Source of the DNA: Thermothelomyces thermophilus ATCC 42464
Taxonomy: Eukaryota > Ascomycota > Sordariomycetes > Sordariales > Chaetomiaceae
Length of the DNA stretch: 64,000 nucleotides
Direction of reading: 5' to 3'
Assembly (NCBI RefSeq): GCF_000226095.1
Contig: NC_016477.1
Span: 3,968,001-4,032,000 of the forward strand
Below the pieces are notes generated by a model. It worked only from the letters and a program-made list of their open reading frames with translations, did no database searches and was not told where the DNA came from. The position numbers and the translations under genes are program-made. Below, piece by piece: positions 4,654 through 60,753 of this stretch (position 1 is its first letter; the number at the start of each line of letters is the position of its first letter).

Positions 4654-5081
4654 TGTGACGAACCTAACTCAGACTGCTTCTAAAAGGGTTCAGACGAAGG
4701 TGGGTTAAGCAGGACAAGCGTACAGGTCGTCTAAGGGATTCGGTGAAGCCAAAGGGTTCACAACAACACTTAGAGTTGTCTCTCACAGTAATCAGCAATG
4801 CTTGGTATGAGTACTGTAATTGTGATTATTACCACTGGTGAACTCCCAGAGTCCACTATAACGAGTGACTATTTACATGTATATATATTCCTAGGATTAC
4901 TAGCAGTCGTGGTGATCATTTATACTAGCTTACCTAGCTTATATCGTGAGCTAGTGATCCTCTGTTAGGATCATTTCTTACTAAGCGTGATCCTGTCCTG
5001 ATTAGTCTATCATTCTTTCGACTTGATTGGCCTATTTATGTTAGTAGCTTAGGTAGCATCTATATATATATTTCCGTGACA
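4654..5081 (-). repeat. Element 1 3' LTR
   Basis: 428 bp, TGTGACGAAC to TTCCGTGACA on the plus strand. The same sequence with RIP differences is at 11781-12208. The minus-strand U3 has two CCAAT-like boxes and several GATCAC/GTGATC blocks before an AT-rich TATA tract. Confidence 0.93.
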
Positions 5082-5207: not shown

Positions 5208-5850
5208 ATGGTAGATCGTGTTTCTAAGCGCCAATCCTCGAAATCCTAATAGCACGCTACGCTTACTTCTTTTATTAATTCTTCTAGTGTAGACGTTATA
5301 CCGTGTTTGTAGTATTTTAAGCGGAACTTGGCTTGTCATATGGCGTCAGGCTCTTCCTACTATAGCAAGTATATATATTAGGGTCGTTCTTACGATAGTT
5401 CCGACGTAGCGTCTGCTTATTTATAACCTGGTTTATTGCCTTAATGTTTATAGCTAATTCTTTATAATAACGAAGATTATATCCGAATAAAAGTATATAG
5501 AGTAAGAAGAGGCCGATGCTAAAGAGGCCCTTTTTATCCTTCAGACTTAACTTTAGACGGCTGTCAGTCGATTAGCTCGTCTTTATCGCTAGAAACGTTT
5601 CTTAAAGGAGCAGGGTTCCAAGCTGTTTCGTCAAGGTATATAGTCTCTAGAGGAAATAGAGGCGGAAGAACGGAGGGTGCGGGAGTCCGAAGTACGTATT
5701 ATTAGTGATGTACGGTCCTAGGGTACTAACGTCCTGTTTGACTAGTCTTCTTTAGGCCTGGATTTGTCGGAGGCTGACTTGGCTGTTTTGTCTGAGCTAG
5801 TGCTTGCGGTCGATCCGGGTTCTGCCGGTAGAACTGTTCCAGTTTCTTAG
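5208..5850 (+). pseudogene. Antisense Zn2Cys6-like/coiled-coil gene of element 1
   Basis: Runs opposite to the element, starting 127 bp inside the 3' LTR. ATG at 5208. Residues 33 to 62 (5304-5393) carry six cysteine positions at C-x2-C-x6-C-x8-C-x2-C-x6-C. Positions 1 and 3 are still Cys (TGT), while 2, 4, 5 and 6 are TAT/TAC (Tyr). Exon 1 seems to end near 5420. A likely intron holds a GCTAATTC branch-like site and ends before about 5511. Exon 2 encodes a helical region (EALFILQT, then RLARLYR and KRFLKEQGSKLF, then SLEEIEAEERR) with leucine/charged periodicity. The frame ends at TAG 5848-5850, overlapping the last 125 bp of pol (stop 5726-5728) tail-to-tail. RIP-type TAG/TAA codons make it non-functional. 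Function unknown; the cysteine spacing matches fungal zinc-cluster transcription factors. Confidence 0.65.
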
Positions 5851-8800
5851 GGCAGTTTAAGTTCTTGACTAGTTCCTACGAGTTGTCTTCTAGTCTAAAA
5901 TCAAGCTATTTGACTAGGTACTATAGTTCCCTATTGATGATGCGTGAATCTAGAATTTCTTCGACGTCCTATTCTTCTTCCTCGTCTTCTGCTTCGATAT
6001 ATGTAGCAACCTTAGCGTTTTTTGGTACTAGTTTAAGAAGCGAAATATAAAAAACATCTGTCTATAGTCGTATAGATGATAGTAACGATAGTCAGTAGTT
6101 AGATGTCGAAATTCGTTCTTTAATAATGAAGGGTCTAACCTTCTTAAAGTCTAGCTTTATGCTTGGTCGTTTGGTTTGTAAGTTTTGTACGATTAGGTAG
6201 GCTTTGTCTCCCCTCTCTAGGCAAGGTCCCTCGAGCCTGTGTTTGTCGTAGTAGTTCTTTATTCTAGTCTTAATAAACTCAAGTTCCTTCTTAAGCTTCT
6301 TATATAGTGCGTACATCTGTTTTACTTTAACTACTGCTCTTAGTACTATGACCTTTGGCCCTTGCCTAAGGTCTGCTTTATATCTATAGTTCGCGAAGAA
6401 TAGTATAACTTTAGTTATTTCCGTTAGTATCGTATTGTAAGCGAGTTATACTATTAGTAATAGTATGACCTAGTTGTCTTGCTAGTAGTTAATGTAAGAG
6501 CAGAGGTATTGCTTAATAACTTAGTTTAGTCGCTCCGTCTGTCCGTTAGTCTGCGGGTGATATACTATTAATAGCTTGCTATTAACGCCTAATCGTCGTA
6601 TTAACGCTTGCTAGAACTTCGACACAAACTTCGTATCTCTGTTGGTGATCTATTCTTACGGCTAAGCATACACTAATGTAACTTGCCGATAGATTACGTC
6701 TGCTAACTGTTCCGCTATCTAGGACTCCTTGTAGGGAAAGAAATATACCTACTTAGTTAGGCAATCTACTATAGTAAGAATACTATTGTAGGTTACTCCT
6801 ATAGCCGTATCTTTAGATTCTAGTAGCTTTGTAATGAAGTCTATCGTAACCGAGCTCTATGGTTTGTCAGCTATTAGCAGTAGCTAAAGTAGCCTATATA
6901 GCTTATATCGTGCCGTTTTACTTCGATTGTAGATGTCGTAGCTCTATACGGCTTCCTTAACTCGTACCGTTAACTGTGGAAAGTCGTAGTGTTTCTTGAC
7001 TTGTACGACAATCTTCGTAACTCCTTTATATCCTCTAAGTTTCGACTCGTAGAGTTCTCAAATCATTCGCAGCTATTGATCCTTGTCGTAGATATATACT
7101 TTACCTTGGTACTAGAGTTTCCTATCTTTCTCTTCTACTCTATCAGGTACCACTAGTCCGGGTGCTACTTAATACTATGCCTCGTTAATCCTTTCCTCTC
7201 GAAAGATTATATAGCATTCGAGGAACGAGGTAAGTAGATTATCTTCTATAGGTGTCTGCGTTTTGTGATATAGCGTTCTATCTGTTTGTTCCTTGAATAA
7301 TGGTGGTATTATTTCCGTTCGTCCTTCTATGTGATCTGTTCGTTGGCTTAAAATGTCTGCTCGTACGTTTTCTTTGCCCTTCTTGTAGCAGATCTCGAAG
7401 TTAAATTCCGCGAGGAATTCTGCCTATCGTATTTGTTGTCTATTAAGTTCCTTTGTCGTTGTGAAGTATCGTAGGTTCTTATAATCTGTATATACTTATA
7501 CTGGTTTAATCGTACCACTAAGGTATGGTCGCTATTCCTTAAAAGCTTTAATAATTATAAGTAGTTCCTTATTATGAATTGGATAATTAAGATGTAGTCT
7601 GTCAAGCTTCTTTGAAAAGAAGGCTATAGGATGTAGCTTCCCTTGTTTGTCTCGTTGTCCTAATTGTCCTCCGATAGCGTAGTCTAAAGCGTCCGTTTCT
7701 ACCTCGAATAGCTTCTTAGGGTCTGGCAGTACTAGTATTAGATCTTTAGTAATGGCATTATAGATCTGTGTAAATGCTTACTCGTATCGCTCTTCCTATT
7801 GGAATTTAGCGTTCTTCTTAGTAAGTTCGTGTAAAGGTTGTACGATCGCTCTAAAGTTCCTAATGAACATTTAGTAGAAGTTTGTAAATCCGATAAAGCT
7901 TTGTACTTCCATAACTAACGTTAGTTATAGCCAATTCTTAATAGCTTTAACCTTTGAAGGTTCTATCTAAATTTGTCCTAGGGATATTTCGTATCCTAGA
8001 AACACTGTTTTCCTAACGTGGAATTTACTCTTTTCCTTGTTAACTAATAGCTTATACGCGTATAGCGCGTCTAGCACTACTTTTACATACTTCTAGTGTT
8101 CGTTTATCGTCTTAGAGAAGATAAGTATATCATTAAGATAATATATTGTAAATTTGTTAAGAAAGGGTTAGATAGCTTAATTAATTAGGGCTTAGAACGT
8201 TGCTAGCGTATTCGTAAGTCCAAATGGCATAACAAGGTACTTATAGTAGCTATAGGGTGTCCTAAAGGCCGTTTTCTACTTGTCGCCTTCTTTAATCTAT
8301 ATATAGTTATAGGCCAATAGCAAGTCAAGACACGTAAAATATTAGGCTCCTGCTAACTAATCTCGGAGCCGTAAGATTAGCGGTAACAGGTATCAATTTT
8401 TCATAGTCTGTTCGTTAAGTTACCGATAGTCGACGTATAACTATAGCTTTCCGTCTTTCTTAGGCATAAATAGGATTAGGTAGCCTGCTAGCGATATTAA
8501 CAGGTAGATATATCCTCTTCGAAGGTTCTCCTCCAAATATCGCTTAAGTTCTTTGTTCTATATTTAGCTCGTATAGTAAATCTTGAAGAACTTCAGTCGT
8601 GCTCCTTCCTTGAGCTTAATCTCGTGATCCTATGGGCCGTGTTCTGGTAATCCTTCTAGATGTTTCGGTTCGAATGCTAGGTGTCCTTTGTATTCCTTTG
8701 GTACTTCCCTAGTCTTATCTTGTCTCTCGGTTTTCTAATAGTATACGAACTTAGTTCCGTCTATAGCAATACTAGCGATTTCTCCTGTCTTAACCTACTA

Positions 8801-11780: not shown

Positions 11781-12208
11781 TGTAACGAACCTAACTTAGA
11801 TTGCTTCTAAAAGGGTTTAGACGAAGGTAGGTTAAGCAGGATAAGTATATAGGTCGTCTAAGGGATTTGGTAAAGCTAAAGGGTTTATAACAATACTTAG
11901 AGTTATCTCTTATAGTAATTAGCAATGCTTAGTATAAGTACTGTGATTGTGATTATTACTACTAGTGAACTCCTAGAGTCCACTATAACGAGTGACTATT
12001 TACATGTATATATATTCCTAGGATCATTAGCAGTCGTGGTGATCATTTATACTGGCTTACCTGGCTTATATCGTGAGCCAGTGATCCTCTATTGGGATCA
12101 TTTCTTGCCAAGCGTGATCCCGTCCTGATTGGTCTATCATTCTTTTGACTTGATTGGCCCGTTCGTGCCAGTGGCTTAGGCGGCATCTGCATGCATATTT
12201 CTATAACA
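11781..12208 (-). repeat. Element 1 5' LTR and primer site
   Basis: 428 bp. On the minus strand the LTR is followed after CG by TTATTACTACT (plus 11768-11778). This is perfectly complementary to the 11-nt LTR segment AGTAGTAATAA (plus 11953-11963), just downstream of the TATA tract: the Tf1-type self-priming arrangement. Confidence 0.9.
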
Positions 12209-18967: not shown

Positions 18968-19388
18968 TGTCACGGAAATATGCATGTAGGACGCTGCCTA
19001 AGCTGCCTCCCCCGACAGGCCAATAGGACAGCAGGCACGAACGGACTAATCAGGAAAGGATTACGCTTAGCAAAGTGATCTATACACTATAGGATCACTA
19101 CCATAGCCGTGATCTAGACAGCAAAGGATCACTAGGTAAAGAGTAATCTCAGGATTATATATACATATAGATAGTCACTCATTATAGTAGACTCTAAGAG
19201 TTTACCAGTGGTAACAATCACAATCACAGTACTTATACTAAGCATTGCTAATTACTATAAGAGATAACTCTAGTATTGTTATAAACCCTTTGGCTTTACC
19301 GAATCCCTTAGACAACCTACCTGCTTGTCACGCTCAACCCACCTCTATCTAGACCCTTTTAGAAGAAGTCTAAGTTAGGTTCGTCATA
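18968..19388 (+). repeat. Element 2 5' LTR and primer site
   Basis: 421 bp. The U3 array of GGATCAC/GTGATC blocks is present with RIP changes. AGTGGTAACAA (19207-19217) lies downstream of the TATA tract. The primer site TTGTTACTACT follows two bases after the LTR (19391-19401) and pairs with it at 11 of 11 positions, allowing one G-U pair. Confidence 0.92.
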
Positions 19389-24600: not shown

Positions 24601-25405
24601 AACGGCATATTACCTACAGACTGACGGACAGACAGAGCGACTAAACTAAGTTATTAAGTAGTATCTCCGTTCTTATGTTAACTACTAGTAAGACGACTAG
24701 GTCATACTATTGCCAATAGTATAACTCGCTTATAATACAATGCCAACAGAAACGACCAAAGTTATACCGTTCTTCGCGAACTATAGATATAAAGCAGACC
24801 TTAAGCAAGGACTAGAGGTCATAGTGCCAAGAGTAGTAGTCAAAGCAAAACAGATGTACATACTATATAAGAAGCTTAAAGAGGAACTCGAGTTTATTAA
24901 GACTAGAATGAAGAACTACTATGACAAACACAGGCTCGAGGGACTTTGCCTAGAGAGGGGAGACAAAGTCTACCTAATTATACGAAACCTGTAAACCAAA
25001 CGACCAAGCACGAAGCTAGACTTTAAGAAGGTCAGACCCTTCGTTATCAAAGAACAAATTTCGACATCTAACTACCGACTATCGTTACCGTCATCTATAT
25101 AATTACAGATAGATATTTTTCATATTTCACTCCTCGAACTAGTACCAAAAAACGCCAAGGTTGTTATACACATCGAAGTAGAAGACGAGGAAGAAGAATA
25201 GGACGTCAAAGAAATTCTAGATTTACGTATTATTAATAGGGAACTATAGTACCTGGTTAAATAGCTTGATTTTAGACTAGAAGACAACTTATAGGAACTA
25301 GTTAAGAATTTAAACTGCCCTAAGAAACTGGAACAGTTCTACCGGCAGAACCCGGATCGACCAAAGGCAAAACCGGGACAGAATCAAAGACGGCGCCCTA
25401 GTTAA
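21635..25405 (+). pseudogene. pol of element 2 (PR-RT-RH-IN-chromodomain)
   Basis: Read in the -1 frame from the slippery site (here AGGAAAC, RIP-changed from GGGAAAC). The protease D-N-G is at 21854-21862. RT has LFVPKKDRKL (about 22690) and RLDLPSAYN-like at about 22840, and an intact YLDD (23030-23041). RNase H has EVETDASDYAIGGQL (about 23465-23508). The integrase HHCC zone is about 24115-24260, the core MIDFITKLLE about 24324, ITDRDTKF about 24520 and TDGQTERLN about 24620. The chromodomain is at about 25180-25340, followed by QFYRQNPDR and stop TAA 25403-25405. RIP stops throughout. Confidence 0.88.
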
Positions 25406-25951
25406 TAACGTTAACGCCACCATTGAGCTGTACACCTAGAACCGCCCCTGATTCCTGCTGTCCCACCTCTTCCAATTCATCCAAAGACGCAAGACCCCGG
25501 CGAACCATCTCCGACCCTCGAGACAATAACGATCGCTTTTGACGACGAATACGGTCTAAACGAGCTAGAGATTCGTCCAGATGATGCTACGCTTTTGCTA
25601 ATAAATCGCGGTCGGCACGGAGAGCCTCTTTAGCATCTTATTCTAACTGGTCGAGGTGCTTTGATTCGTCTACAATGCGGGACACTATAGAAGTTAGTAT
25701 AGAAAAAATATACTAGCAAGGGAATACGGACAAGACGAGACCGGAACCCTAGAATCGTCGCACGACCTCCCGCGACAAACGTACTCGCCGTAATAAGAAG
25801 AACTCTCTATTATACGGCAGCAGAGGCCGCGAGAAAAACAATAAGAATAAGGCATTACTTTAAACCCTAGCTTATTAATAGCAGCAGCTAGGGCAATACG
25901 CTCCTCGGTCTTCACAGATCTTTTTATCGAACGCTTTACTATACGAGACAT
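25320..25951 (-). pseudogene. Antisense Zn2Cys6-like/coiled-coil gene of element 2
   Basis: The best-preserved exon 1 of this gene. It runs from ATG 25949-25951 with 73 codons free of stops. The basic N-terminus (SRIVKRSIKRSVK) is followed at residues 35 to 64 (25760-25849) by six positions spaced C-x2-C-x6-C-x8-C-x2-C-x6-C. Residues 38, 45 and 64 are Cys; 35, 54 and 57 are Tyr from TGY-to-TAY changes. A 47-nt intron (25685-25731) has a TACTAAC-like branch site and a TATAG acceptor. Its donor GTCCGT is unusual, but this splice joins VSS-L to SRIVDESKHLDQLE in frame. Exon 2 is a coiled coil (ALRADRDLLAKA, then RLDRIRRQKRSLLSRGSEMV and LASLDELEEV) and ends at TAG 25320-25322, 86 bp inside pol. 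Exon 2 carries a few TAG/TAA codons. Resembles a zinc-cluster regulator by spacing only. Confidence 0.7.
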
Positions 25952-26073: not shown

Positions 26074-26494
26074 TGTCACGGAAATATATATACAGGACGC
26101 CGCCTGAGCCGCCTCCCCCGACAGGCCAATAGGACAGCAGGCACAAATAGACCAATTAGGAAAGGATCACACTTGGCAAAGTGATCTATACACTATGGGA
26201 TCACTACCGCAGCCGTGATCCAGACGGCAAAGGATCACTAGGTAAAGAGTGATCTCAGGATTATATATATATATAGATAGTCACTCGTTATGGTGGACTC
26301 TGGGAGTTTACCAGTGGTAACAATCATAATTACAGTACTTATACTAAGCATTGCTGATTACTGTAAGAGATAACTCTAGTGTTATTGTGAACCCTTTGGC
26401 TTCACCGAATCCCTTAGACGACCTGCCTGCTCGTCACGCTCAACCTACCTCCGTCTGGACCCTTTTAGAAGAAGTCTGAGTTGGGTTCGTCACA
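26074..26494 (+). repeat. Element 2 3' LTR
   Basis: 421 bp, preceded by a purine-rich tract (AAGGAGGGGCATCG) serving as polypurine tract. U3 holds CCAAT at 26126-26130 and 26152-26156. A periodic hairpin array follows, then TATA at 26262-26275. The segment that mirrors the primer site is at 26313-26323. Less RIP-damaged than the 5' copy. Confidence 0.93.
26164..26254. promoter_or_regulatory. Six alternating GGATCAC/GTGATCC blocks at exact 17-bp steps
   Basis: Blocks begin at 26164, 26181, 26198, 26215, 26232 and 26249, alternating in orientation. They form three hairpins of 24 nt (7-bp arms, 10-nt loops) separated by 10 nt. They lie between the CCAAT boxes and the TATA tract of the LTR, so they may be binding sites for an activator or repressor of the element. 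The 5' LTR keeps the same layout with single-base RIP changes. Confidence 0.75.
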
Positions 26495-30988: not shown

Positions 30989-31435
30989 TGTCACAGATAA
31001 GCATATAGACGGCCTGGCAGGCTACAGCCAGGACGCGGGACATTCTGACAGCCAATCACTTGACAGACCAATCAGAAGATTATTACTGCCAAGACCAAGG
31101 TCTTCACTAGTGATAATAACATGTCACCGTCGACAACGCGGAGTCACAGAGTAAAAGGAGAAATGGTACTAGTGATAACTACTAAAGAGGGACAGACAAT
31201 TATATATATATAGCTAGCTAGTCACTCGTTATAGTAGACTCTAGGAGTTTACTAGTAGTAACAATTATAATCATAGTATTTATACTAAGCATTGCTAATT
31301 ACTATAAGAGACAACTCTAATGTTATTATAAACCCTTTAGCTTTACCAAATCCCTTAGACAACCTGCCTACTCGTCACGCTTAATCTACCTCCGTCTAGA
31401 CCCTTTTAGAAGAAGTCTAAGTTAGGTTCGTCACA
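30989..31435 (+). repeat. Element 4 5' LTR
   Basis: 447 bp. CCAAT boxes at about 31052 and 31069, a nested inverted repeat around AAGACC-AA-GGTCTT, and TATA tract from 31201. AGTAGTAACAA (31254-31264) lies about 45 nt past the TATA tract and would be the 5' end of the transcript under self-priming. Confidence 0.93.
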
Positions 31436-36700: not shown

Positions 36701-37452
36701 TTAAGTAGTACCTCTGCTCTTATATCAACTACTAGCAAAACGACTAGGTCATGCTATTACTAATAGTATAACTCGCTTACAATACGACGTTAACAGAAAC
36801 GACTAAAGTCACACCGTTCTTCGTAAACTACGGATATAAAGCAGACCTTAGGCAAGGACCAAAGGTCATAGTGCCAAGAGCAATAGTCAAAGCAGAACAG
36901 ATGTACGTACTATATGAGAAGCTTAAAAAGGAACTCGAGTTTATTAGAACTAGAATAAAGAACTACTACGACAAATATAGGCTCGAGGGACCTTGCCTAG
37001 AGAGGGGAGACAAAGTCTACCTAATCGCACGAAACTTACGAACTAAACGACCAAGTACAAAGCTAGACTTTAAGAAGGTCAGACCCTTTGTTATTAAAGA
37101 ACGAATTTCGACATCTAACTACCGACTATCGTTACCGTCATCTATATAACTACGGACGGATGTTTTTTATATTTCACTTCTCGAACTAGCACCAAAAAAC
37201 GCTAAAGTTGCTACGTATATTGAAGCAAAAGACGAGGAAGAAGAATAGGACGTCAAAGAAATTCTAGATTTACGTATTATTAACGGAGAACTATAGTACC
37301 TAGTTAAATGGCCTGATTTTAGACTAGAAGATAACTTATAGGAACTAGTCAAGAACCTAAATTGCCCTAAGAAACTGGAACAGTTCTACTAGTAGAATCC
37401 AAATCGACTAAAGGAAAACCTAGGACAGAACCAAAGACAACGTCCTAGTTGA
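33682..37452 (+). pseudogene. pol of element 4 (PR-RT-RH-IN-chromodomain)
   Basis: The protease reads D-S-R (33901-33909). The RT palm has an RLDLLSAYN-like motif near 34885, and the catalytic box is Y-L-D-N (35077-35088). RNase H is at about 35515-35880 and integrase at about 36160-36760. The C-terminal integrase run at 36871-37149 is stop-free for 92 codons (MYVLYEKLKKELEFIRTRIK). The chromodomain is at about 37200-37370. Stop TGA 37450-37452. Confidence 0.87.
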
Positions 37453-38005
37453 CAGCATCGGCAGTATCATTAATCTCTAACAAGGGCATAGTAGGCGCCT
37501 CTTACCGCTCTTGCCGCTTAACTACCTCTAACTTGTCTAAGGTCGATAGACTATACGCTACCATATCGGCACCTTTCTCCACTAAAAACTCCTTCTATTG
37601 ACGAAGACGCCAGAGCCGTATAAGCTTTTCAGATAACTCGTGCTAGGCTTCTTCTAGACGGTGTTAGGATTTATCTAGCTCAAGTTCGGCACGACGTTTA
37701 GCATCCTTAATACGACGTTGCTCCTAGAGAATGCGATCTACTAGAACAAATATTAGGAATCATACTTAAAAAAAAAAAAAAAGGGAGACAAGCTTATAGG
37801 AAGAAAGCGGGATGCCAGAGCTATCGTAAAAACGACCTTGACGAATATAGGCCTTGTAACGCTTTATATATGCGATTATTTTGCAGATAAGACCTTGAGA
37901 CACGCACCAAAAGCAAGGCATAATGATAAAACCGTTCTTAGCGATGTTCTAAGCAAGGGAAGCATAGTAACGTATAGAATACGACTTCCGTTTCTCTACT
38001 AGCAT
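37367..38005 (-). pseudogene. Antisense Zn2Cys6-like/coiled-coil gene of element 4
   Basis: ATG 38003-38005, 126 bp inside the 3' LTR. Residues 31 to 60 (37826-37915): the first three cysteines are intact (PCFWC, then LIC), the last three are Tyr, with the same C-x2-C-x6-C-x8-C-x2-C-x6-C spacing. One in-frame stop at residue 19 (CAG to TAG). A poly-T run on the coding strand (plus-strand A-run near 37769-37783) sits in the presumed intron, before an acceptor near 37740. Exon 2 (AKRRAELELDKS-like, then RLWRLRQ and VEKGADMVA) is a predicted coiled coil. It ends at TAG 37367-37369, overlapping pol. Confidence 0.65.
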
Positions 38006-38131: not shown

Positions 38132-38578
38132 TATCACAGATAAGCATATAGACGGCCTGGCAGGCTGCAGCTAGGACGCGGGACATTCCGACAGCCAATC
38201 ACTTGACGGACCAATCAGAAGATTATCACTGCCAAGACCAAGGTCTTCACTGGTGATAATAACATGTCACCGTCGACAACGCGGAGTCATAGAGTGAAAG
38301 GAGAAATGGTACTAGTGATAACTACTAAAGAGGGACAGACAATTGTATATATATAGCTAGCTAGTCACTCGTTATAGTGGACTCTAGGAGTTCACCAGTG
38401 GTAATAATTATAATTATAGTACTTATACCAAGCATTGCTGATTACTATGAGAGACAACTCTAGTGTTGTTGTGAACCCTTTGGCTTTACCGAATCCCTTA
38501 GACGACCTGCCTGCTCGTCACGTTCAATCTACCTCTGTCTAGACCCTTTTAGAAGAAGTCTGAGTTGGGTTTGTCACA
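38132..38578 (+). repeat. Element 4 3' LTR
   Basis: 447 bp, beginning TATCACAG (RIP of TGTCACAG) after the purine tract AAAGGAGGGGCATCG. Less mutated in U3 than the 5' copy. Ends TTGTCACA before the ATAGC duplication. Confidence 0.93.
38222..38260. promoter_or_regulatory. Nested inverted repeat in U3 of the element 4/7 LTR type
   Basis: Outer arms ATTATCAC (38222-38229) and GTGATAAT (38253-38260), inner arms AAGACC (38234-38239) and GGTCTT (38242-38247). It occupies the place of the hairpin array in element 2 and shares the TCAC/GTGA core. A role as regulator-binding site is inference. Confidence 0.6.
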
Positions 38579-42900: not shown

Positions 42901-43679
42901 TCTGTTCTTACGTTAACTACTAGTAAGACGACTAGGTTATGCTGTTGCCAATAGTATAACTCGCTTATAATATAATGCTAACGGAAACGACTAAAGTCAC
43001 ACCGTTCTTCGCGAACTATGGATATAAAGTAGACCTTAGGCAAGGACTAGAGGTCTTAGTGCCGAGAGCAGCAGTCAAAGCGAAACAAATGTATATACTA
43101 TATAAGAAGCTTAAAAAGGAACTCGAGTTTATCAGGACTAGAATAAAGAACTACTACGACAAATATAGGCTTAAGGGACCTTGCCTAAAGAGGGGAGATA
43201 AAGTCTACCTAATTACACAAAACTTATAAACCAAATGACTAAGTATAAAGCTAGACTTTAAGAAGGTCGGACCCTTTGTTATTAAAGAACGAATCTTAAC
43301 ATCTAACTATTAACTATCGTTACTATTATCTATACAACCACGGACAGACGTTTTTCATATTTCACTTCTCGAACTAGCGCCGAAGAATGCCAAAATCGCT
43401 ATAAATATCGAAGTAGAGGACGAAGAGGAAGAATAGGATATTAAAGAAATTCTAGATTTATATATTATTAATAGGGAACTATAATATCTAGTTAAATGGC
43501 TTGATTTTAGACTAGAGAATAACTTATAAGAACTAGTCAAGAATTTAAACTGCCTTAAGAAACTAGTATAGTTCTACCGACAGAACCTAGATCAACTATA
43601 GGCACTAGCTCAGATAAAACGGCCAAGTTAGCCTCTGACAAATCCAGGCCTAAAGAGGACTAATCAAATAGGACGTTAG
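39936..43679 (+). pseudogene. pol of element 3, with an internal RT deletion
   Basis: The protease D-S-G is intact (40155-40163). In RT, 66 nt (22 codons between the SAYN motif and the LFGLTN motif) are missing at the junction 41180/41181. The catalytic box is Y-L-D-N (41265-41276). RNase H, integrase (FITKLLESKD about 42570) and chromodomain (about 43400-43545) follow in order. Stop TAG 43677-43679 after a Pro/Thr-rich tail, 9 nt before element 5. Confidence 0.83.
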
Positions 43680-43688
43680 CACCCTAGG
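43555..43688 (-). pseudogene. Antisense Zn2Cys6-like gene of element 3, 3' end
   Basis: The last part of exon 2 of the opposite-strand gene, ending at TAA 43555-43557 and overlapping pol. It is interrupted at CTAGG by element 5 and continues at 51237-51330. Assigned by alignment with the intact layout in elements 1 and 5. Confidence 0.6.
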
Positions 43689-44115
43689 TGTGACGAACCC
43701 AACTCAGACTTCTTCTAAAAGGGTCTAGACGGAGGTAGATTGAGCGTGACAAGCAGGCAGGTCGTCTAAGGGATTCGGTAAAGCCAAAGGGTTTATAACA
43801 ACACTAGAGTTGTCTCTCATAGTAATTAGCAATGCTTGGTATAAGTACTGTGATTGTGATTGTTACCACTGGTAAACTCCCAGAGTCTACTATAACGAGT
43901 GACTATTTATATATATATATACTCCTAGGATCACTAGCAGTCGTGGTGATCATTTATACTAGCTTACCTGGCTTATATTGTAAGCTAGTAATCCTCTGTT
44001 AGGATCATTTCTTGCCAAGCGTGATCCTGTCCTAATTGGTCTATTATTCCTTCGGCTTAATTGGCCTGTTTATGCTAATAGCTTAGGCGGCATCTGTATA
44101 TATATTTCCGTGACA
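43689..44115 (-). repeat. Element 5 3' LTR
   Basis: 427 bp, TGTGACGAACCC to TTTCCGTGACA on the plus strand. Good preservation: GATCAC blocks, CCAAT-like boxes and the TTGTTACCACT segment (reverse complement of the presumed transcript 5' end) are readable. Confidence 0.93.
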
Positions 44116-44241: not shown

Positions 44242-44884
44242 ATGGTAGATCGTGTTTCTAAGCGCCGATCCTCGAAATCCTAACAGCGTGCTGTGCTTGC
44301 TTCTTTTATTGATTCTTCTAGCGTAGACGTCATACCGTGTTTATAGTGTTTTAAGCGGAACTTGGCTTGTTATATGGCGTTAGGCTCTTCTCGCTATAGT
44401 AAGTGTATATGTTAGGGTCGTTCTTATAATGGTTCTAATATAGCGTCTGCTTGTTTATGACCTAGTTTATTGCCTTAATATTTGTAGCTAATTCTTTATA
44501 ATAACAAAGATTATATCTAAATAAAAGTGTGTAGAATAAGAAGAGGCCAATGCTAAAGAGGCCCTTTTTGTCCTTTAGACTTAACTTTAGACGGCTGTCG
44601 GTCGATTAGCTTGTCTTCGTCATTAGAAACGTTTCTTGAAGGAGCAGGGTTCCGAGCTGTTTCGTCGAGGTATGCAGTCTCTAGAGGAAATAGAGGCGGA
44701 AGAACGGAGGGTATAGGAGTCCGAAGCACGTATTATTAGTGATATACGGTCCTAGGGTGCTAATGTCCCGTTTGACTAGTCTTCTTTAGGCCTGGATTTA
44801 TTAGAGGCCGACTTGGCTGTTTTGTCCGAGCTAGTGCCTATGGTCGATCTAGGTTCTGCCGGTAGAACTGTTTTAGTTTCTTAG
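44242..44884 (+). pseudogene. Antisense Zn2Cys6-like/coiled-coil gene of element 5
   Basis: ATG at 44242 (MVDRVSKRRSSKS). This copy retains the most cysteines: in the zinc-cluster block 44338-44427, positions 1, 2, 3 and 5 are TGT, and only 4 and 6 are TAT. Likely intron from about 44456 to about 44531, with GCTAATTC as branch-like site and TGTGTAG as acceptor. Exon 2 reads ANAKEALFVL, then RLTVG- and RNVS-shifted segments that return to EEIEAEERR near 44690. Stop TAG 44882-44884, overlapping the pol tail (pol stop 44760-44762). A few TAG codons remain in frame. Confidence 0.67.
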
Positions 44885-47800
44885 GGCAGTTCAAGTTCTT
44901 AACTAGTTCCTATAAGTTGTCTTCTAGTCCAAAATTAAGCTATTTGACTAGGTACTATAGTTCCCCGTTAATAATATATAAATCCAGAATTTCTTCGATG
45001 TCCTATTCTTCTTCTTCGTCTTCTGCTTCGATATACGTGGTAACCTTCGCGTTTTTTGGTACTGGTTCGAGGAGTGAAATATAAAAAATATCTATCTGTA
45101 GTCGTATAGATGATAGTAACGATAGTCGGTAGTTAGATGTCGAAATTCGTTCTTTGATAATAAAGGGTCTGACCTTCTTAAAGTCTAGCTTCGTGCTTAG
45201 TCGTTTGGTTCGTAAGTTCCGTGCGATTAGGTAGACTTTGTCTCCCCTCTCTAGGTAAGGTCCCTTGAGCCTGTATTTGTTATAGTAATTCTTTATTCTG
45301 GTTTTGATAAACTCGAGTTCTTTTTTGAGCTTTTCATATAATGCGTACATTTGTTCTACTTTAACTGCTGCTCTCGGCACTATGACCTCTAGTCCTTGCC
45401 TAAGGTCTGCTTTATATCTATAGTTTGCAAAGAACGGTGTGACTTTGGTCGTTTCCGTTAGTGTCGTATTGTAAGCGAGTTATGCTGTTGGCAATAGCAT
45501 GACCTAGTCGTCTTACTAGTAGTTGACGTAAGAACGGAGGTACTGCTTAATAACTTGGTTTAATTGCTCTGTTTATCTGTTAGTCTGTAGGTAATATGCT
45601 ATTAACAGCTTACTATTAATGCCTAATCGTCGTATTAACGCTTACTAGAACTTCGATGCGAACTTGGTGTCTCTATTAGTGATCTATTCTTGCGGCCAAG
45701 CATGCACTAATGTAACTTGCCAATAGATCACGTCTGCCAGCTATTTAGCTATCTATGACTCCTTGTAGGGAAAGAAGTATACCTATTTAGTTAAGCGATC
45801 TACTATAGTAAGAATACTATTATAGATTACTCCTATAGCTATGTCCTTAGATTCTAGTAGCTTTGTAATGAAGTCTATCGTGACTAAGCTCTATAGTTTG
45901 TCAGCTGTTAGTAGTAGCTAAAGTAGCCTATATGGCTTATATCGTGCCGTTTTGCTTCGATTGCAAATGTCGTAGTTCTATATAACTTCCTTAACCTGTG
46001 CCGTTAACTATAGAAAGTCGTAATGTTTCTTGACTTATACGATAGTCTTCGTAACTCCTTTGTATCCTCCGAGTTTCGACTCGTAGAGTTCTCGAATCAT
46101 CTGCAGCTATTGATCCTGGTCGTAGATATATGCTTTGCCTCGGTACCAAAGTTTCCCATCTCTTTCTTCTACTCCGTTAGGTACTACTAGTCTAGGTGCT
46201 GCCTAATACTATGCCTCGTTAATCCTTTCCTCTCGAAAGATTATATAGCATTCGAGGAACGAGTTAAGTAGATTGTCTTCTATAGGTGTCTACATTTCGT
46301 GATGTAGCATTCCGTCTGTTCGTTCTTTGAATAATGGTGGTGTTATTCCCGTTCGTCCTTTTGTATGATCCGTTCGTCGGCTTAAGATGTCTGCTCGTAC
46401 GTTCTCTTTGCCCTTCTTATAGTGGATCTCAAAGTTAAATTCTATAAGGAATTCTACCTATTGTATTTGTTGTCTGTTAAGCTCCTTTATAAAGTATCGC
46501 AAATTCTTATGATCTGTATACACTTGTACCGGTTTAATTGTACTACTAAGGTATAGTTACTATTCCTTAAAAGCTTTAATAATTATAAGTAGTTCCTTGT
46601 CATAGATCGGATAATTAAGACGTAGTCTATTGAGCTTCTTTGAAAAGAAGGCTATAGGATATAGCTTTCCTTATCTGTCTCGTTGTCCTAATTGTCCTCC
46701 GATAGCGTAGTCTAAAGCGTCCGTTTCCACCTTAAATGGCTTCTTAGGGTCTGGTAGTACTAGTACTAGATCCTTAGTAATGGCGTTACAGATCTATATA
46801 AATGCTTGCTCGTATCGCTCTTCCTATTGGAATTCGGCGTTCTTTTTGGTGAGTTCGTATAAAGGTCGTACGATCGCTCTAAAGTTCCTAATAAACATTT
46901 GGTAGAAGTTTATAAATCTGATGAAGCTTTGTACTTCTGTGACTAATGTTGGTTATAGCTAATTCTTAATGGCTTTAACCTTTGAAGGTTCTATCCGAAT
47001 TTGTCCTAAGGATATTTTATATCCTAGAAATACCATTTTCCTAACGTGAAATTCGCTCTTTTCCTTGTTAACTAATAGCTTGTACGCGTATAGCGTGTCT
47101 AGTACTGCTTTCACGTGCTTCCGGTGTTTATCTATTGTCTTAGAGAAGATAAGTATATTATCGAGATAATATACTATAAATTTGTCGAGAAAGGGTCAGA
47201 TAGCTTAATTAATTAGGGCTTAGAACGTTGCTGGCGCGTTTGTAAGTCTGAATGGCATGACAAGGTACTTATAGTGGCTATAGGGTATCCTAAAGGCCGT
47301 TTTCCACTCGTTGCCTTCTTTGATCTATATATAGTTATAGGCCGATAGCAAGTCAAGACGTGTAAAATATTAGGCTCCTGCTAACTGATCTTAGAGCCAT
47401 AAGATTAGCAGTAACAGGTATCGATTTTTTATAGTCTGTTCGTTAAGTTGCCGATAGTCGACATATAACCGTAGCTTTCCGTCTTTCTTAGGCATAAATA
47501 GGACTAAGTAGCCTGCTAGCGATGTCGACAGGCAGATATATCCTCTTCGAAGGTTCTCATCTAAATATCGCTTAAGTTCTTTGTTCTATATCTGGCTCGT
47601 GTAGTAAATCTTAAAGAACTTTAGTTATATTCTTTCCTTAAGCTTGATCTCGTGATCCTATAGGCCGTGTTCTGGTAATCCTTCTAGATATTTCGGTTTG
47701 AATGCTAGGTGTCCTTCGTATTCCTTCGGTACTTCCCTAGTCTTGTCTTGTCTCTTGGTTTTCTAATAGTATACGAACTTGGTTCCGTCTATAGCGATGC

Positions 47801-50809: not shown

Positions 50810-51231
50810 TATAACGAACCTAACTTAGACTTCTTCTAAAAGGGTCTAGACAGAGGTAGATTAAGCGTAATAAGTAGGCAGGTCGTCTAAGGGATTCGGT
50901 GAAGCCAAAGGGTTTATAACAATACTAGAGTTGTTTAGTAATTAGCAATGCTTAGTATAAGTACTGTGATTGTGATTGTTACCACTAGTGAACTCCCAGA
51001 GTCTACTATAATGAGTGACTATTTATATATATATATACTCCTAGGATCACTAGTAGTCGTGGTGATTATTTATACTGGCTTACCTAGCTTATATCGTGAG
51101 CTAGTGATCCTCTGTTAGGATCATTTCTTGCTAAGCGTGATCCCGTCCTGATTGGTCTATCATTCCTTTGGCTTGATTGGCCCGTTTGTGCCAGTGGCTC
51201 AGGCGGCATCTGCATGTATATTTCCGTGACA
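50810..51231 (-). repeat. Element 5 5' LTR and primer site
   Basis: 422 bp. The primer site lies two bases inside (plus AGTAGTAATAA, about 50797-50807) and pairs with the LTR segment TTGTTACCACT-type sequence near 50978 with one RIP difference and one G-U pair. Confidence 0.9.
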
Positions 51232-51236
51232 CTAGG

Positions 51237-51330
51237 ACTATACGTCATTGACAACGCGTGCCTTGGAATCCTATATCCTCTGTTCTTCTGCCTCTATTTC
51301 TTCTATAGACTATATACCTCGACGAAATAG
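51237..51330 (-). pseudogene. Antisense Zn2Cys6-like gene of element 3, coiled-coil fragment
   Basis: 94 bp matching the coiled-coil part of the gene in elements 1 and 5 (plus-strand AGGCGGAAGAACGG-type sequence, read in reverse), lying between element 5 and element 6. The zinc-cluster exon lies outside the window. Confidence 0.55.
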
Positions 51331-51470
51331 TGTCACGAGCCAACTATATACCGCGACCCGGCAGGGCACAGGAGGCTGAATGAGCCACCAATCAAGAAGG
51401 TGTTACGAGCTAACTATATACCGCGACCTGGCAGGGCACAGGAGGCTAAATAAGCCACCAATCAAGAAGG
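51331..51470 (+). repeat. Tandem 70-bp repeat at the LTR terminus
   Basis: Copies 51331-51400 and 51401-51470 differ at a handful of sites, all C/T or G/A (TGTCACGAGCCAAC against TGTTACGAGCTAAC; GACCCGG against GACCTGG; GGCTGAATGAGCC against GGCTAAATAAGCC). The unit starts exactly at the LTR TG terminus. Confidence 0.9.
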
Positions 51471-53170: not shown

Positions 53171-53617
53171 TGTGACGAACCTAACTCAGACTTCTTCTAA
53201 AAGGGTCCAGACAGAGGTAGATTAAGCATAATAAGCAGGCAGGTCGTCTAAGGGATTCGGTGAAGCCAAAGGGTTTACAACAACACTAGAGTTGTCTCTT
53301 ACAGTAATTAGCAATGCTCGGTATAAGTACTGTGATTGTAATTATTACTACTAGTAAACTCCCAGAGTCTACTATAACGAGTAACTAGCTAGCTATATAT
53401 ATACAATTGTCTATCCTTCTTCAATAGTTATCACTAGTACCACTTCTCCTTTCACTTCGTGATTCTACGTTATCGATAGTAATATGTTATTATCACTAGT
53501 GAAGACCTTAGTCTTGGCGGTAATAATCTTCTAATTAGTCCGTCGAGTAATTGGCTGTCGGAATGTTCCGTGTCCTAGCTACAGCCTGCCAGGCCGCCTA
53601 TATGCTTATCTGTGATA
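53171..53617 (-). repeat. Element 7 3' LTR
   Basis: 447 bp from TGTGACGAACC to CTGTGATA (RIP of CTGTGACA) on the plus strand. Carries the nested inverted repeat of this LTR type near 53500. Confidence 0.93.
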
Positions 53618-53744: not shown

Positions 53745-54374
53745 ATGCCGATAGAGAAACGGAAGTCGCATTCTGCACGTTACCGTGCTTCCCTTGCTTA
53801 GAATATTGCTAAGAATGGTTTTGTTGTTATACCTTGCTCTTGGTACGCGTCACAAGGCCTCGTTTGCAAAATGATCACGCGTATAAAGCGTTACAAGGCC
53901 TATATTTGTCAAGGTCGTTCTTACGATGGCTCTGGCATCCTACTTTCTTCCTATAAGCTTGTCTCCCCTTTTTTTTTTTTTTTACTATAATTTCTAATGT
54001 TTGTTCTAATAGATCGTATTCTTTAGGAGTAGCGTCGTATCAAGGATGCTAAACGTTATGCCGAACTTGAGCTAGATAAATCCTAACGCCATCTAGAAGA
54101 AGCCTAGCGCGAGTTGTCTGAAAAGCTTATACGGCTCTGGCGTCTTTGTTAGCAGAAGGAGTTTTTGGTAGAGAAAGGTGCCGATATGATAGCGCGTGGT
54201 CTGTCAACCTTAGACGAGTTGGAGGAGGTTAAGCGGCAAGAGACGCCTGCTATGCCCTTATTATAGATTAATGATGCCGTCGATGCTGTCGACTAGGGCG
54301 CCGTCTTTAGTTCTGTCCCGGGTTTTCCTTTGGTCGATCTAGGTTTTGCCGGTAGAACTGTTCTAGTTTCTTAG
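53745..54374 (+). pseudogene. Antisense Zn2Cys6-like/coiled-coil gene of element 7
   Basis: ATG at 53745. Residues 31 to 60 (53835-53924) hold the zinc-cluster spacing: Cys at 31 and 41, Tyr at 34, 50, 53 and 60. One stop (TAG, codon 19) interrupts exon 1. The presumed intron contains a long T-run (about 53968-53984), a CTAAT-like branch site and TAATAG before about 54012. Exon 2 (AKRYAELELDKS, LIRLWRL, KEFLVEKGADMIARGLSTL, then DELEEVKRQE) is strongly coiled-coil-like. Stop TAG 54372-54374, overlapping the pol tail by roughly 100 bp. Sequence identity to the gene in elements 1 and 5 is low; spacing and layout are the same. Confidence 0.67.
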
Positions 54375-57300
54375 GGCAGTTTAAATTCTTGATTAGTTCC
54401 TATAAGTTGTCCTCTAGTCTAAAATCAAGCTATTTAACTAGATACTATAGTTCTCTATTGATAATACGTAAATCTAGAATTTCTTTGATATCCTATTCTT
54501 CTTCCTTGTCTTCTGCTTCGATGTATATAACAACCTTGGCGTTTTTCGGTGCTGGTTTAAGAAGTAAAATATGAAAAACATCTATCTATAGTTATATAGA
54601 TGACGGTAACGATAGTCGGTAGTTAGATGTCGAAATTCGTTCTTTGATAACGAAGGGTCCGACCTTCTTAAAGTCTAGCTTTACGCTTGGTCGTTTGGTT
54701 TGTAAGTTCTGTACGATTAGGTAGACTTTATCTCCCCTCTCTAGGTAAGGTCCCTCGAGCCTATATTTATTATAGTAGTTCTTTATTCTAGTCTTGATAA
54801 ACTCGAGTTCTTTTTTAAGCTTTTTATATAGTATATACATTTGTTCTACTTTGACTGCTGCTCTTGGCACTGTGACCTCTAGTCCTTGCCTAAGGTCTGC
54901 TTTATATCCGTAGTTCGCGAAGAACGGTGTGACTTTAGTCGTTTCTGTTAGTGTCGTGTTGTAGGCAAGTTATACTATTAGCAGTAGTATGACCTAGTCG
55001 TCTTGCTAGTAGTTAATGTAAGAGCGGAGGTACTACTTAATAACTTAGTTTAGTCGTTCCGTTTGTCTGTCGGTCTACGGGTGATATGCTGTTGACAGCT
55101 TGCTGTTGACGCCTAATCGTCGTATTAACGCTTGCCAGAACTTCGATATGAACTTGGTGTCTCTGTCAGTAATCCATTCTTGCGGCCAAGCATGTACTAA
55201 TGTAACTTGTCGATAGATTACGTCTACTAGCTATTTAGCTATCTAGGACTCCTTATAGGGAAAGAAGTATGCCTATTTAGTTAGGCAATCTACTATAGTA
55301 AGAATACTATTATAGGTTACTCCTATGGCTGTGTCCTTAGATTCTAGCAGCTTCGTGATAAAGTCTATCGTGATTAAACTCTATAGTTTGTCAGCTATTA
55401 GTAGTAGCTAAAGTAGCCTATATAGCTTGTGTCGTGCCGTCTTACTTCGATTGCAAATATCGTAGTTCCGTACGACTTCCTTAACTCGTACCGTTAATTA
55501 TAGAAAGTCGTAGTGTTTCTTAACTTGTGTAATAGTCTTCGTGACTCCTTTGTATCCTCTAAGTTTCGACTCGTAGAGTTCTCGAATCATTCGTAGCTAT
55601 TGATCCCCGTTGTAGATATATACTTTGCCTTGGTACTAGAGTTTCCTATCTTTCTCTTCTACTCCGTCAGGTACTACTGGTCTAGGTGCTGCTTGATACT
55701 ATACCTCATTGATCCTTTCCTCTTGAAAGATTACGTAGTATTCTAGGAACGAGTTAAGTAGATCATCTTCTACGGGTGTCTACGTTTCGTGATATAGCGT
55801 TCTGTCTGTTTGTTCCTTAAACAACGGTAGTGTTGTTTCCGTTTGTCCTTTCGTATGATCCGTTCGTCGGCTTAAAATGTCTGCTCGTGCGTTTTCTTTG
55901 CCCTTCTTATAGCAGATCTCGAAGTTAAATTCTACAAGGAATTCTGCCTATCGTATTTGTCGTCTGTTAAATTCCTTTGTTATCGTGAAGTATTGTAGGT
56001 TCTTGTGATCTATATATACTTGTATTGGTTTAATCGTGCCACTAAGGTATGGTCGCCATTCCTTAAAAGCTTCGATAATCGCAAGTAGTTCCTTGTTATA
56101 GATTAGATAATTAAGACATAGTCTATTGAGCTTCTTTTGAAAAGAAGGCTATAGGATGTAGCTTCCCTTGTTCGTCTTATTATCCTAATTATCCTCCGAT
56201 GGCGTAGTCTAAAGCGTCTGTTTCTACCTCAAATAGCTTCTTAGGGTCCGGTAGTACTAGTACTAGATCCTTAGTAATAGTGTTACGGATCTACGTAAAT
56301 GCTTGCTCGTATTACTCTTCCTATTGGAATTTAGTGTTCTTCTTGGTGAGTTTATACAAAGATCATACGATCGCTCTAAAGTTCCTAATGAACATTCGAT
56401 AGAAGTTTATAAATCCGATAAAGCTTTGTACTTCTATGACTGACGTCGGTTGTAGCTAATTCTTAATAGCTTTAACTTTTGAAGGTTCTATCCGAATTTG
56501 TCCTAGGGATATTTTATATCCTAGAAACACCGTTTTCCTAACGTAGAATTCGCTCTTTCCCTTGTTAACTGATAGCTTGTACGTGTATAGCGCGTTTAAT
56601 ACTGCTTTTACGTACTTCTGGTATTTGTCTATTGTCTTAGAGAAGATAAGTATGTCGTCAAGATAATATACCGTAAATTTGTCGAGAAAGGGTCAGATAG
56701 CTTGATTAATCAGGGCTTAGAACGTTGCTAGCGCGTTTGTAAGTCCGAATAGCATAATAAGGTACTTGTAGTGGCCATAGGGTATCCTAAAGGCCGTTTT
56801 CCACTCGTCGCCTTCTTTGATCCGTATATGGTTGTAGGCCGATGGCAAGTCAAGACGTGTAAAATATTGGGCTCCTGTTAACTGATCTCGGAGCCGTGAG
56901 ATTAGCGGTAACGGGTATCGGTTTTTCACGGTCTGTTCGTTAAGTTGCCGATAGTCGACGTATAACCGTAGCTTTCCGTCTTTCTTAGGCATAAATAGGA
57001 TTAGGTAGCCTGCTAGCAATGTCGACGGGCGGATATGTCCTCTTCGAAGGTTCTCCTCTAAATATTGCTTAAGTTCTTCGTTCTATATCTAGCTTATATA
57101 GTAAATCTTAAAGAACTTTAGTTATATTCCTTTCTTAAGCTTGATCTTGTAATCCTATAGGCCGTGTTCTGGTAATCCTTCTAGATGCTTCGGTTCGAAT
57201 GCTAGGTATCCTTTATATTCTTTTGGTACTTCCCTAGTCTTATCTCGTCTCTTGGTTTTCTAATAGTATACGAACTTGGTTCTATCTATAGCGATACTAG

Positions 57301-60306: not shown

Positions 60307-60753
60307 TGTGACGAACCTAACTTAGACTTCTTCTGAAAGGGTCTAGACGGAGGTAGATTGAGCATAACAAGTAGGCAGGTCGTCTAAGGGATTCGGTAAA
60401 GCTAAAGGGTTTATAATAACATTAGAGTTGTCTCTTATAGTAATTAGCAATGCTCGGTATAAGTACTATGATTGTGATTATTACTACTAGTGAACTCCTA
60501 GAGTCTACTATAACGAGTAACTAGCTAGCTATATATATATAATTGTCTGTCCTTCTTTAATAGTTATTACTAGTACTACTTCTCCTTTTACTTTATGATT
60601 CTACGTTATCGACGGTGACATGTTATTATTACTAGTGAAGACCTTAGTCTTGGTGGTGATAATCTTCTGATTGGTCTGTCGAGTGATTGGCTGTCGGAAT
60701 GTTCCGTGTCCTAGCTACAGCCTGCTAGGCCGCCTATGTGCTTATCCGTGACA
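60307..60753 (-). repeat. Element 7 5' LTR and primer site
   Basis: 447 bp. The primer site (plus AGTAGTAATAA, 60294-60304) and the LTR segment (plus TTATTACTACT, 60478-60488) are perfectly complementary in the transcript, 11 of 11. Confidence 0.93.

Follow-up and report, generated by a model that had tools for sequence, protein, structure and literature searches.

What kind of gene lies on the opposite strand of the Ty3/gypsy elements in a retrotransposon island of Thermothelomyces thermophilus ATCC 42464, and what it may do there, was the question raised by a stretch of 64,000 nucleotides (NC_016477.1, positions 3,968,001 to 4,032,000; hereinafter referred to as the window). The genome was surveyed as 38,744,216 bases in 7 contigs, in which the window corresponds to C6:3968001-4032000. 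It is an island of nested elements, which have about 6.2 kb in common at approximately 87% identity, and the stretch adjoining the 3' long terminal repeat (LTR) occurs in several types that were mutually unalignable as DNA. Modules A (elements 1 and 5), B (element 2), and C (elements 4 and 7) were distinguished in the window. On the strand opposite to gag-pol, all five elements carry a gene that begins about 130 bp inside the 3' LTR, spans the stretch from there to pol, and ends within the 3' end of pol. This is a real, independent protein-coding gene, and its type was found to go with the type of the U3 half of the LTR.

An ATG was present at all five starts (5208, 25951, 38005, 44242, and 53745), and a stop was found at the homologous place in each (last bases 5868, 25302, 37349, 44902, and 54392). 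The opposite-strand gene proposed for these elements in the original prediction was thus borne out, while the gene ends given there fell 18 bases short of the stops in all five. Lack of any intact homologue had been named there as one result that would speak against the gene; intact homologues were present in the same genome.

These belong to two families, D and E. A protein search with one B exon 2, in which 150 of 690 candidates were scored, had led to a family free of stops. Family D (reference locus L105, C2:2524800-2526700) comprised 18 LTR pairs about 7.15 kb apart with 99-100% identity, plus four unpaired LTRs (among 40 scored), and family E (reference locus L106, C2:2837500-2839000) comprised 15 LTR pairs 7.10 kb apart with 99-100% identity. 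Both exons of the D antisense gene were open and 100% identical in 18/18 copies, and the E antisense frame was open in 15/15 (12 at the top score and three slightly lower). The pol frame of D (1264 amino acids) was stop-free in 18/18, and that of E measured 1287 amino acids in 12 of the 15 copies, with shorter open frames in the other three. A chromodomain was detected at the C-terminus of D pol (PF00385, E 2.8e-14, 53.2 bits, cut-off 25.1). The D antisense product has 196 amino acids in two exons with one predicted intron, and the E product has 212 amino acids in a single exon without an intron; all six cysteines of the module described below are intact in both. The antisense gene and pol converge, and their ends overlap by 125 nt in D and by 194 nt in E. 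The occurrence of both families amid relatives hit by repeat-induced point mutation (RIP) in one genome points to recent activity without passage through RIP. One of the unpaired D LTRs (C3:250404-250851) is separated by 120 bp from an LTR belonging to a complete E element (C3:250972-258482).

Coding constraint was examined by aligning all frame pairs between one copy per module, leaving out the stretch shared with pol. D and E were used intact, and stops in A and B were written as X. In 6/6 module pairs the gene frame was the top of 36 frame pairs, scoring 152-376; the best of the remaining 35 scored 63-239 and was a reverse-strand pair in every case. With 200 residue shuffles per module pair, the best scores were 58-73, all below the gene frame. 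When differences were counted by codon position in a DNA alignment blind to frame, positions 1, 2, and 3 held 63, 51, and 102 in D-B, 61, 42, and 85 in A-B, and 69, 60, and 89 in D-A. Transversions, which are not made by RIP, were distributed as 45, 26, and 67 in D-B. The third-position bias asked for in the original prediction was therefore present in these three pairs; it was absent in D-E (77, 58, and 72), where the fewest changes fell at position 2. The non-synonymous and synonymous distances between these two RIP-free genes were dN 0.74 and dS 1.58, the latter near saturation. Since D-E lacks a third-position excess, constraint in this pair rests on position 2 and on dN being lower than dS.

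Further evidence came from the copies changed by RIP. For each module 40 places were scored, out of 365 (A), 228 (B), and 458 (C) first-look candidates, and all 40 A copies, the best 20 of 40 B copies, and the best 19 C copies plus window element 7 were taken. These 80 copies are best matches, the window's own included, and no random draw. RIP was saturated at many codons, so that a test for fixed stops was uninformative; a refined version pointed to the intron, and its list includes saturated RIP columns.

The spacing C-x2-C-x6-C-x8-C-x2-C-x6-C, noted beforehand for A, B, and C, was confirmed in these modules and recurred in D; E has C-x2-C-x7-C-x9-C-x2-C-x7-C. In all 80 copies (40 A, 20 B, and 20 C) the six columns held exclusively Cys or Tyr, in agreement with the earlier observation that each lost cysteine is a TAY codon. 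TAY is the expected RIP product of TGY, because TGY has CpA, the RIP target, on its other strand. The fourth Cys column of C was Tyr in 20/20 copies and is Cys in the intact relative D. Columns of this kind were absent from exon 2 (0 of 133, 127, and 130 codons in A, B, and C, respectively); exon 1 contained an additional one in each of B and C, and its other two forward frames had 2-4 each.

The original prediction had described one continuous gene, of which the coding nature stood and the continuity did not, as an intron had been overlooked. In A and B the zinc part and the helix part differ in frame; in C they share one, with in-frame stops between them. This is accounted for by an intron at one shared position and in phase 1 (after the first base of a codon), measuring 49 nt in A, 47 nt in B, and 57 nt in C. 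The donor was GT or its RIP form AT in 80/80 copies (GT in 20/40 A, 17/20 B, and 1/20 C), and the acceptor was AG or AA in 80/80 (AG in 33 A, 20 B, and 18 C). A CTRAY motif was found within about 20 nt before the acceptor in 79/80. With the intron removed, all 40 A, 20 B, and 20 C copies ended at one common stop, and every copy contained 1-14 internal stops. The intact D intron has 70 nt (GTAAGC...CTGAT...CTAG). From these features we infer that the intron is spliced. It can survive retrotransposition because it is antisense to the genomic RNA and hence unspliced there. The D intron (L105 988-1057) contains a long T tract, and the frames reading through it measured 110-136 amino acids among the 18 D copies, which suggests variation in the length of the tract. 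In the window the splice sites were partly changed by RIP, and the gene is arranged as follows.

5208..5418, plus strand: element 1 (module A), exon 1, six-cysteine part
5419..5467, plus strand: element 1, intron, 49 nt, phase 1, AT..AA in this copy
5468..5868, plus strand: element 1, exon 2, long helix and tail, stop at 5866-5868
25732..25951, minus strand: element 2 (module B), exon 1
25685..25731, minus strand: element 2, intron, 47 nt, GT..AG kept
25302..25684, minus strand: element 2, exon 2
37798..38005, minus strand: element 4 (module C), exon 1
37741..37797, minus strand: element 4, intron, 57 nt, AT..AG in this copy
37349..37740, minus strand: element 4, exon 2
44242..44452, plus strand: element 5 (module A), exon 1
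44453..44501, plus strand: element 5, intron, GT..AA in this copy
44502..44902, plus strand: element 5, exon 2
53745..53952, plus strand: element 7 (module C), exon 1
53953..54009, plus strand: element 7, intron, AT..AA in this copy
54010..54392, plus strand: element 7, exon 2

A linkage of this gene to U3, which was absent from the original prediction, was found throughout. The gene type equalled the U3 type in 82/82 loci (L025-L106; 40 A, 20 B, 21 C/D, and 1 E), four of which themselves supplied the type sequences, and likewise in both LTRs of the five window elements, whose U3 parts (no strand assigned) are located as follows.

4872..5080: element 1, 3' LTR, type A
11999..12201: element 1, 5' LTR, type A
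26075..26277: element 2, 3' LTR, type B
18969..19171: element 2, 5' LTR, type B
38134..38361: element 4, 3' LTR, type C/D
30990..31218: element 4, 5' LTR, type C/D
43906..44114: element 5, 3' LTR, type A
51022..51230: element 5, 5' LTR, type A
53388..53615: element 7, 3' LTR, type C/D
60524..60752: element 7, 5' LTR, type C/D

As gene and U3 are neighbours, this linkage alone is no proof of a functional pair. The comparison of D with E delimited the linked block. Identity was 97-100% over R-U5 (L105 205-384), 0.23-0.72 per 60 columns over L105 ~385-1414, and in pol 0.87 and then 0.97-1.00, the last bin being gap-containing at 0.85. Outside the overlap, the pol ends of D and E differed by a synonymous proportion pS of 0.09 (dS 0.096), with no transversion and one non-synonymous difference in 149 codons. 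Synonymous divergence thus rises sixteen-fold across one border, from dS 0.096 in pol to 1.58 in the antisense gene. Because rate alone would hardly give such a step at a single border, exchange of the block, or homogenisation of the backbone around it, is the likely cause. If the pol backbone had been homogenised rather than the block exchanged, a unit escaping homogenisation would equally be needed. One border of the block is close to the antisense stop and the other coincides with the TATA/R border, positions at which template switching would be expected to place them. The pol tail downstream of the chromodomain (L105 1316-1440) belongs to the exchanged block; within the gene overlap the pol frames of D and E differed by a non-synonymous proportion pN of 0.27 over 41 codons, the rest of the compared pol end being near-identical. 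Another type, F (two loci, outside the 82), has a gene and a U3 of its own. By similarity its closest type is A for the U3, B for exon 2, and, weakly, C/D for exon 1, so that U3 similarity and gene similarity do not run in parallel between types.

The U3 parts contained iterated motifs. The most repeated 6- or 7-mer of each U3, a word chosen by the test itself, was compared with 1000 dinucleotide shuffles. GATCGCA occurred five times in E and GATCAC six times in B, counts reached by 0/1000 shuffles; the B sites stand at 24, 40, 58, 74, 92, and 108 in alternating orientation with a 34-bp period. Enrichment was weaker in A (two copies tested; GATCAC/GGATCA four times, 14-16/1000 for 6-mers; TGAGCCA four times, 0/1000 in one copy and 38/1000 in the other for 7-mers) and in D (GGTGATA three times, 21/1000 for 7-mers and 264/1000 for 6-mers). 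The R-U5 controls showed no enrichment except for one D 7-mer at the borderline (28 of 300). For a core GYGAT, which was picked after this test, 4 (A), 6 (B), 5 (D), 8 (E, some of them overlapping on both strands), and 7 and 10 (F) sites per U3 were counted, reached by 40, 0, 6, 0, and 0 and 0 of 1000 shuffles, respectively. Of the 40 sites in the five types, 38 lie between the TATA box and the first CCAAT box.

The predicted antisense protein has a basic head, followed by the six-cysteine module, which is zinc-cluster-like, and by a long helix; it ends in a tail that is weakly acidic, with five acidic and no basic residues of 46 in D, and six acidic and two basic of 62 in E. Folded alone, E gave a 44-residue helix (residues 78-121), with block means of the predicted local distance difference test (pLDDT) of 78-92 over residues 81-120 (84-92 from residue 91 onwards) and a mean of 63.1 for the whole model. 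The heptad score was reached by 15/500 shuffles in D and by 199/500 in E. A coiled coil had been predicted after the cluster; a helical segment is indeed there, with heptads that are clear in D only and no better than shuffles in E. The spacing in A-D agrees with the Zn2Cys6 consensus invoked in the original prediction, and that in E does not. Membership of that family (PF00172) is further weakened by several results. Of 11 sequences searched against Pfam Zn_clus, 10 gave no match and the remaining one was below the cut-off; for D exon 1, Pfam gave Zn_clus as the sole family (E 0.073, 13.6 bits, cut-off 21). The PROSITE signature PS00463, which has basic residues between the second and third cysteines, was matched by 0/4 modules. 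Pfam returned nothing for the RIP-hit interval first noted and two chance matches only for six exon pieces, and PDB sequence searches returned no zinc cluster. The structure model of the cysteine module was weak (pLDDT 59.9), with a short helix at each CxxC, and no basic recognition residues occur between the second and third cysteines. The protein is also small and has no middle homology region, unlike fungal Zn2Cys6 proteins. In view of the sub-threshold Pfam match, the PROSITE result, the weak cysteine model, and heptads above shuffles in D only, we call the protein zinc-cluster-like and do not assign it to Zn2Cys6.

We lean slightly towards the reading that this protein is a DNA-binding regulator of its own LTR. 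Its gene would be transcribed from a promoter in or beside U3 of the 3' LTR, reading backwards. The protein would enter the nucleus, pair through its helix, and bind the iterated GYGAT-type sites in the U3 of its own cassette, between the TATA and CCAAT boxes. It would thereby control the LTR of the element; activation and protection from silencing are both possible, and both would be likelier than repression. A role in the control of LTR transcription had been suggested beforehand, and the linkage to U3 together with the motif array there now lends it support. We put forward more tentatively, at somewhat less than an even chance, that protein and U3 motif act as key and lock, diverging together and being swapped as a unit by template switching. 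Switches in R and near the end of pol would move the protein together with its target, and because the two travel together, key and lock would stay matched.

Other explanations were weighed against a regulator of the LTR. The protein might be an accessory factor without a regulatory function, such as one that binds nucleic acid and assists in particles or in import into the nucleus; the U3 arrays would then be ordinary sites for host transcription factors, carried along as neighbours. This is unlikely, but to be reckoned with: the zinc module lacks basic recognition residues, arrays differing by module could be host-factor sites, adjacency suffices for the linkage, and type F is closest to one type by its U3 and to another by its gene. 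In addition, selection on promoter or enhancer function of U3 has been proposed for crapaud of Podospora, as far as the accessible text goes (PMC10787394). Against it stands the array core, which is common to five types and sits at the same place beside a gene with a DNA-binding look. We regard it as rather improbable that the protein works against silencing in the manner of VANC of the VANDAL elements, binding with sequence specificity to iterated motifs of its own element and lifting silencing instead of driving the promoter. VANC belongs to another protein family than the zinc-cluster-like antisense protein, and homology to it is not expected. According to the available part of the source, VANC is coded by the element and targets iterated motifs, often tandem repeats, that differ between related elements (PMC5735166), and the module-specific arrays found here likewise adjoin a divergent gene. 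VANDAL elements are, by the same account, DNA transposons, and binding is reported for VANC, whereas here it is inferred; moreover, the present arrays sit at the typical place of a promoter, from CCAAT to TATA.

It is very improbable that the antisense RNA is the working product, forming double-stranded RNA with the end of pol over the 125-194 nt of overlap while the protein is incidental. The two genes do overlap tail to tail, and the accessible text on plant elements considers such a role (PMC7264820), but conservation at the protein level, retention of the cysteines, and the intron argue against it. The chance that the frame is spurious, e.g., the mirror of a sense gene, is negligible. Reflection can open antisense frames, in line with the second rank of a reverse-strand pair; the gene lies mostly outside pol, its frame wins in all six module pairs, and the cysteine columns, the intron, and the existence of two widely divergent proteins in intact copies refute this explanation in practice.

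Element 3 had been said to carry the gene in pieces. Exon-2 fragments were found on each side of element 5 (matches >40 bits) and nothing beyond exon 2.

43599..43688, minus strand: element 3, exon-2 fragment, cut by element 5
51229..51330, minus strand: element 3, further exon-2 fragment

A 71-bp tandem duplication with 93% identity occurs at 51330-51470, in the element 3 remnant beside the element 5 insertion. Positions 5876-5878 were considered as the stop of pol in element 1 and rejected, as an intact copy has a tryptophan codon of the chromodomain in this column. The left edge of the island (1-1250) is GC-rich (0.62 over 1-1000) and probably contains a host gene.

Antisense genes at this place of LTR elements have been described before. 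The brtn gene of the Boty-like Ty3/gypsy elements of Botrytis cinerea (Zhao et al. 2011, Virology 417:248; as mentioned in PMC7264820, PMC8365987, PMC4227169, PMC5987419) likewise belongs to a fungal chromodomain element, in which it occupies the same antisense position next to the 3' LTR, downstream of pol; the accessible portions of the four PMC papers describe no U3 cassette or iterated motif for it. The plant aORF-3R genes, i.e., Grande gene23, RIRE2, and Retand TRP28 (PMC7264820, PMC11963269), are antisense open reading frames between pol and the 3' LTR of Gypsy elements, for which a regulatory role has been suggested. According to the same partial texts, Grande has its own promoter and a nuclear protein and Retand has predicted DNA binding; their domains are different (TRP28, SMC), and neither a zinc cluster nor a linked U3 exchange is described there. 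Two of the properties asked of aORF-3R and brtn genes were found in the present gene: it occupies this position in antisense, and it occurs in many copies under coding constraint. HBZ, of human T-cell leukemia virus type 1 (HTLV-1), is a bZIP protein and thus of a different class from the zinc-cluster-like protein. It too is a nuclear protein coded antisense in an LTR element, with a role in the life cycle, as stated in the available part of the source (PMC11963269). The crapaud subfamilies differ in U3 upstream of TATA and share R-U5 and most of the internal region, and recombination at a template switch is discussed in the accessible text; no antisense gene is mentioned in its main text (PMC10787394). 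A literature search on fungal zinc-cluster antisense genes in LTR elements, which covered few subscription papers, returned brtn and the plant cases only, and the accessible texts report for such genes neither a product resembling a zinc cluster nor an intron, nor a cassette that joins gene and U3 with private arrays. Antisense genes at this place are thus already known from plants and Botrytis, as far as these sources extend, and what is new here is that the gene and the U3 half of the LTR behave as one cassette.

Two RIP-free families with identical or nearly identical copies make the regulatory reading directly testable within one fungus. If it is true, it would provide a function for the so far unexplained antisense genes of Gypsy elements. 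If key and lock are indeed matched, families with near-identical gag-pol would run on different private promoters, which would also account for fungal LTR families, such as crapaud, that differ mainly in U3. Fungal LTR elements would then own an exchangeable pair of promoter and regulator, and there would be a simple reason why U3 alone diversifies.
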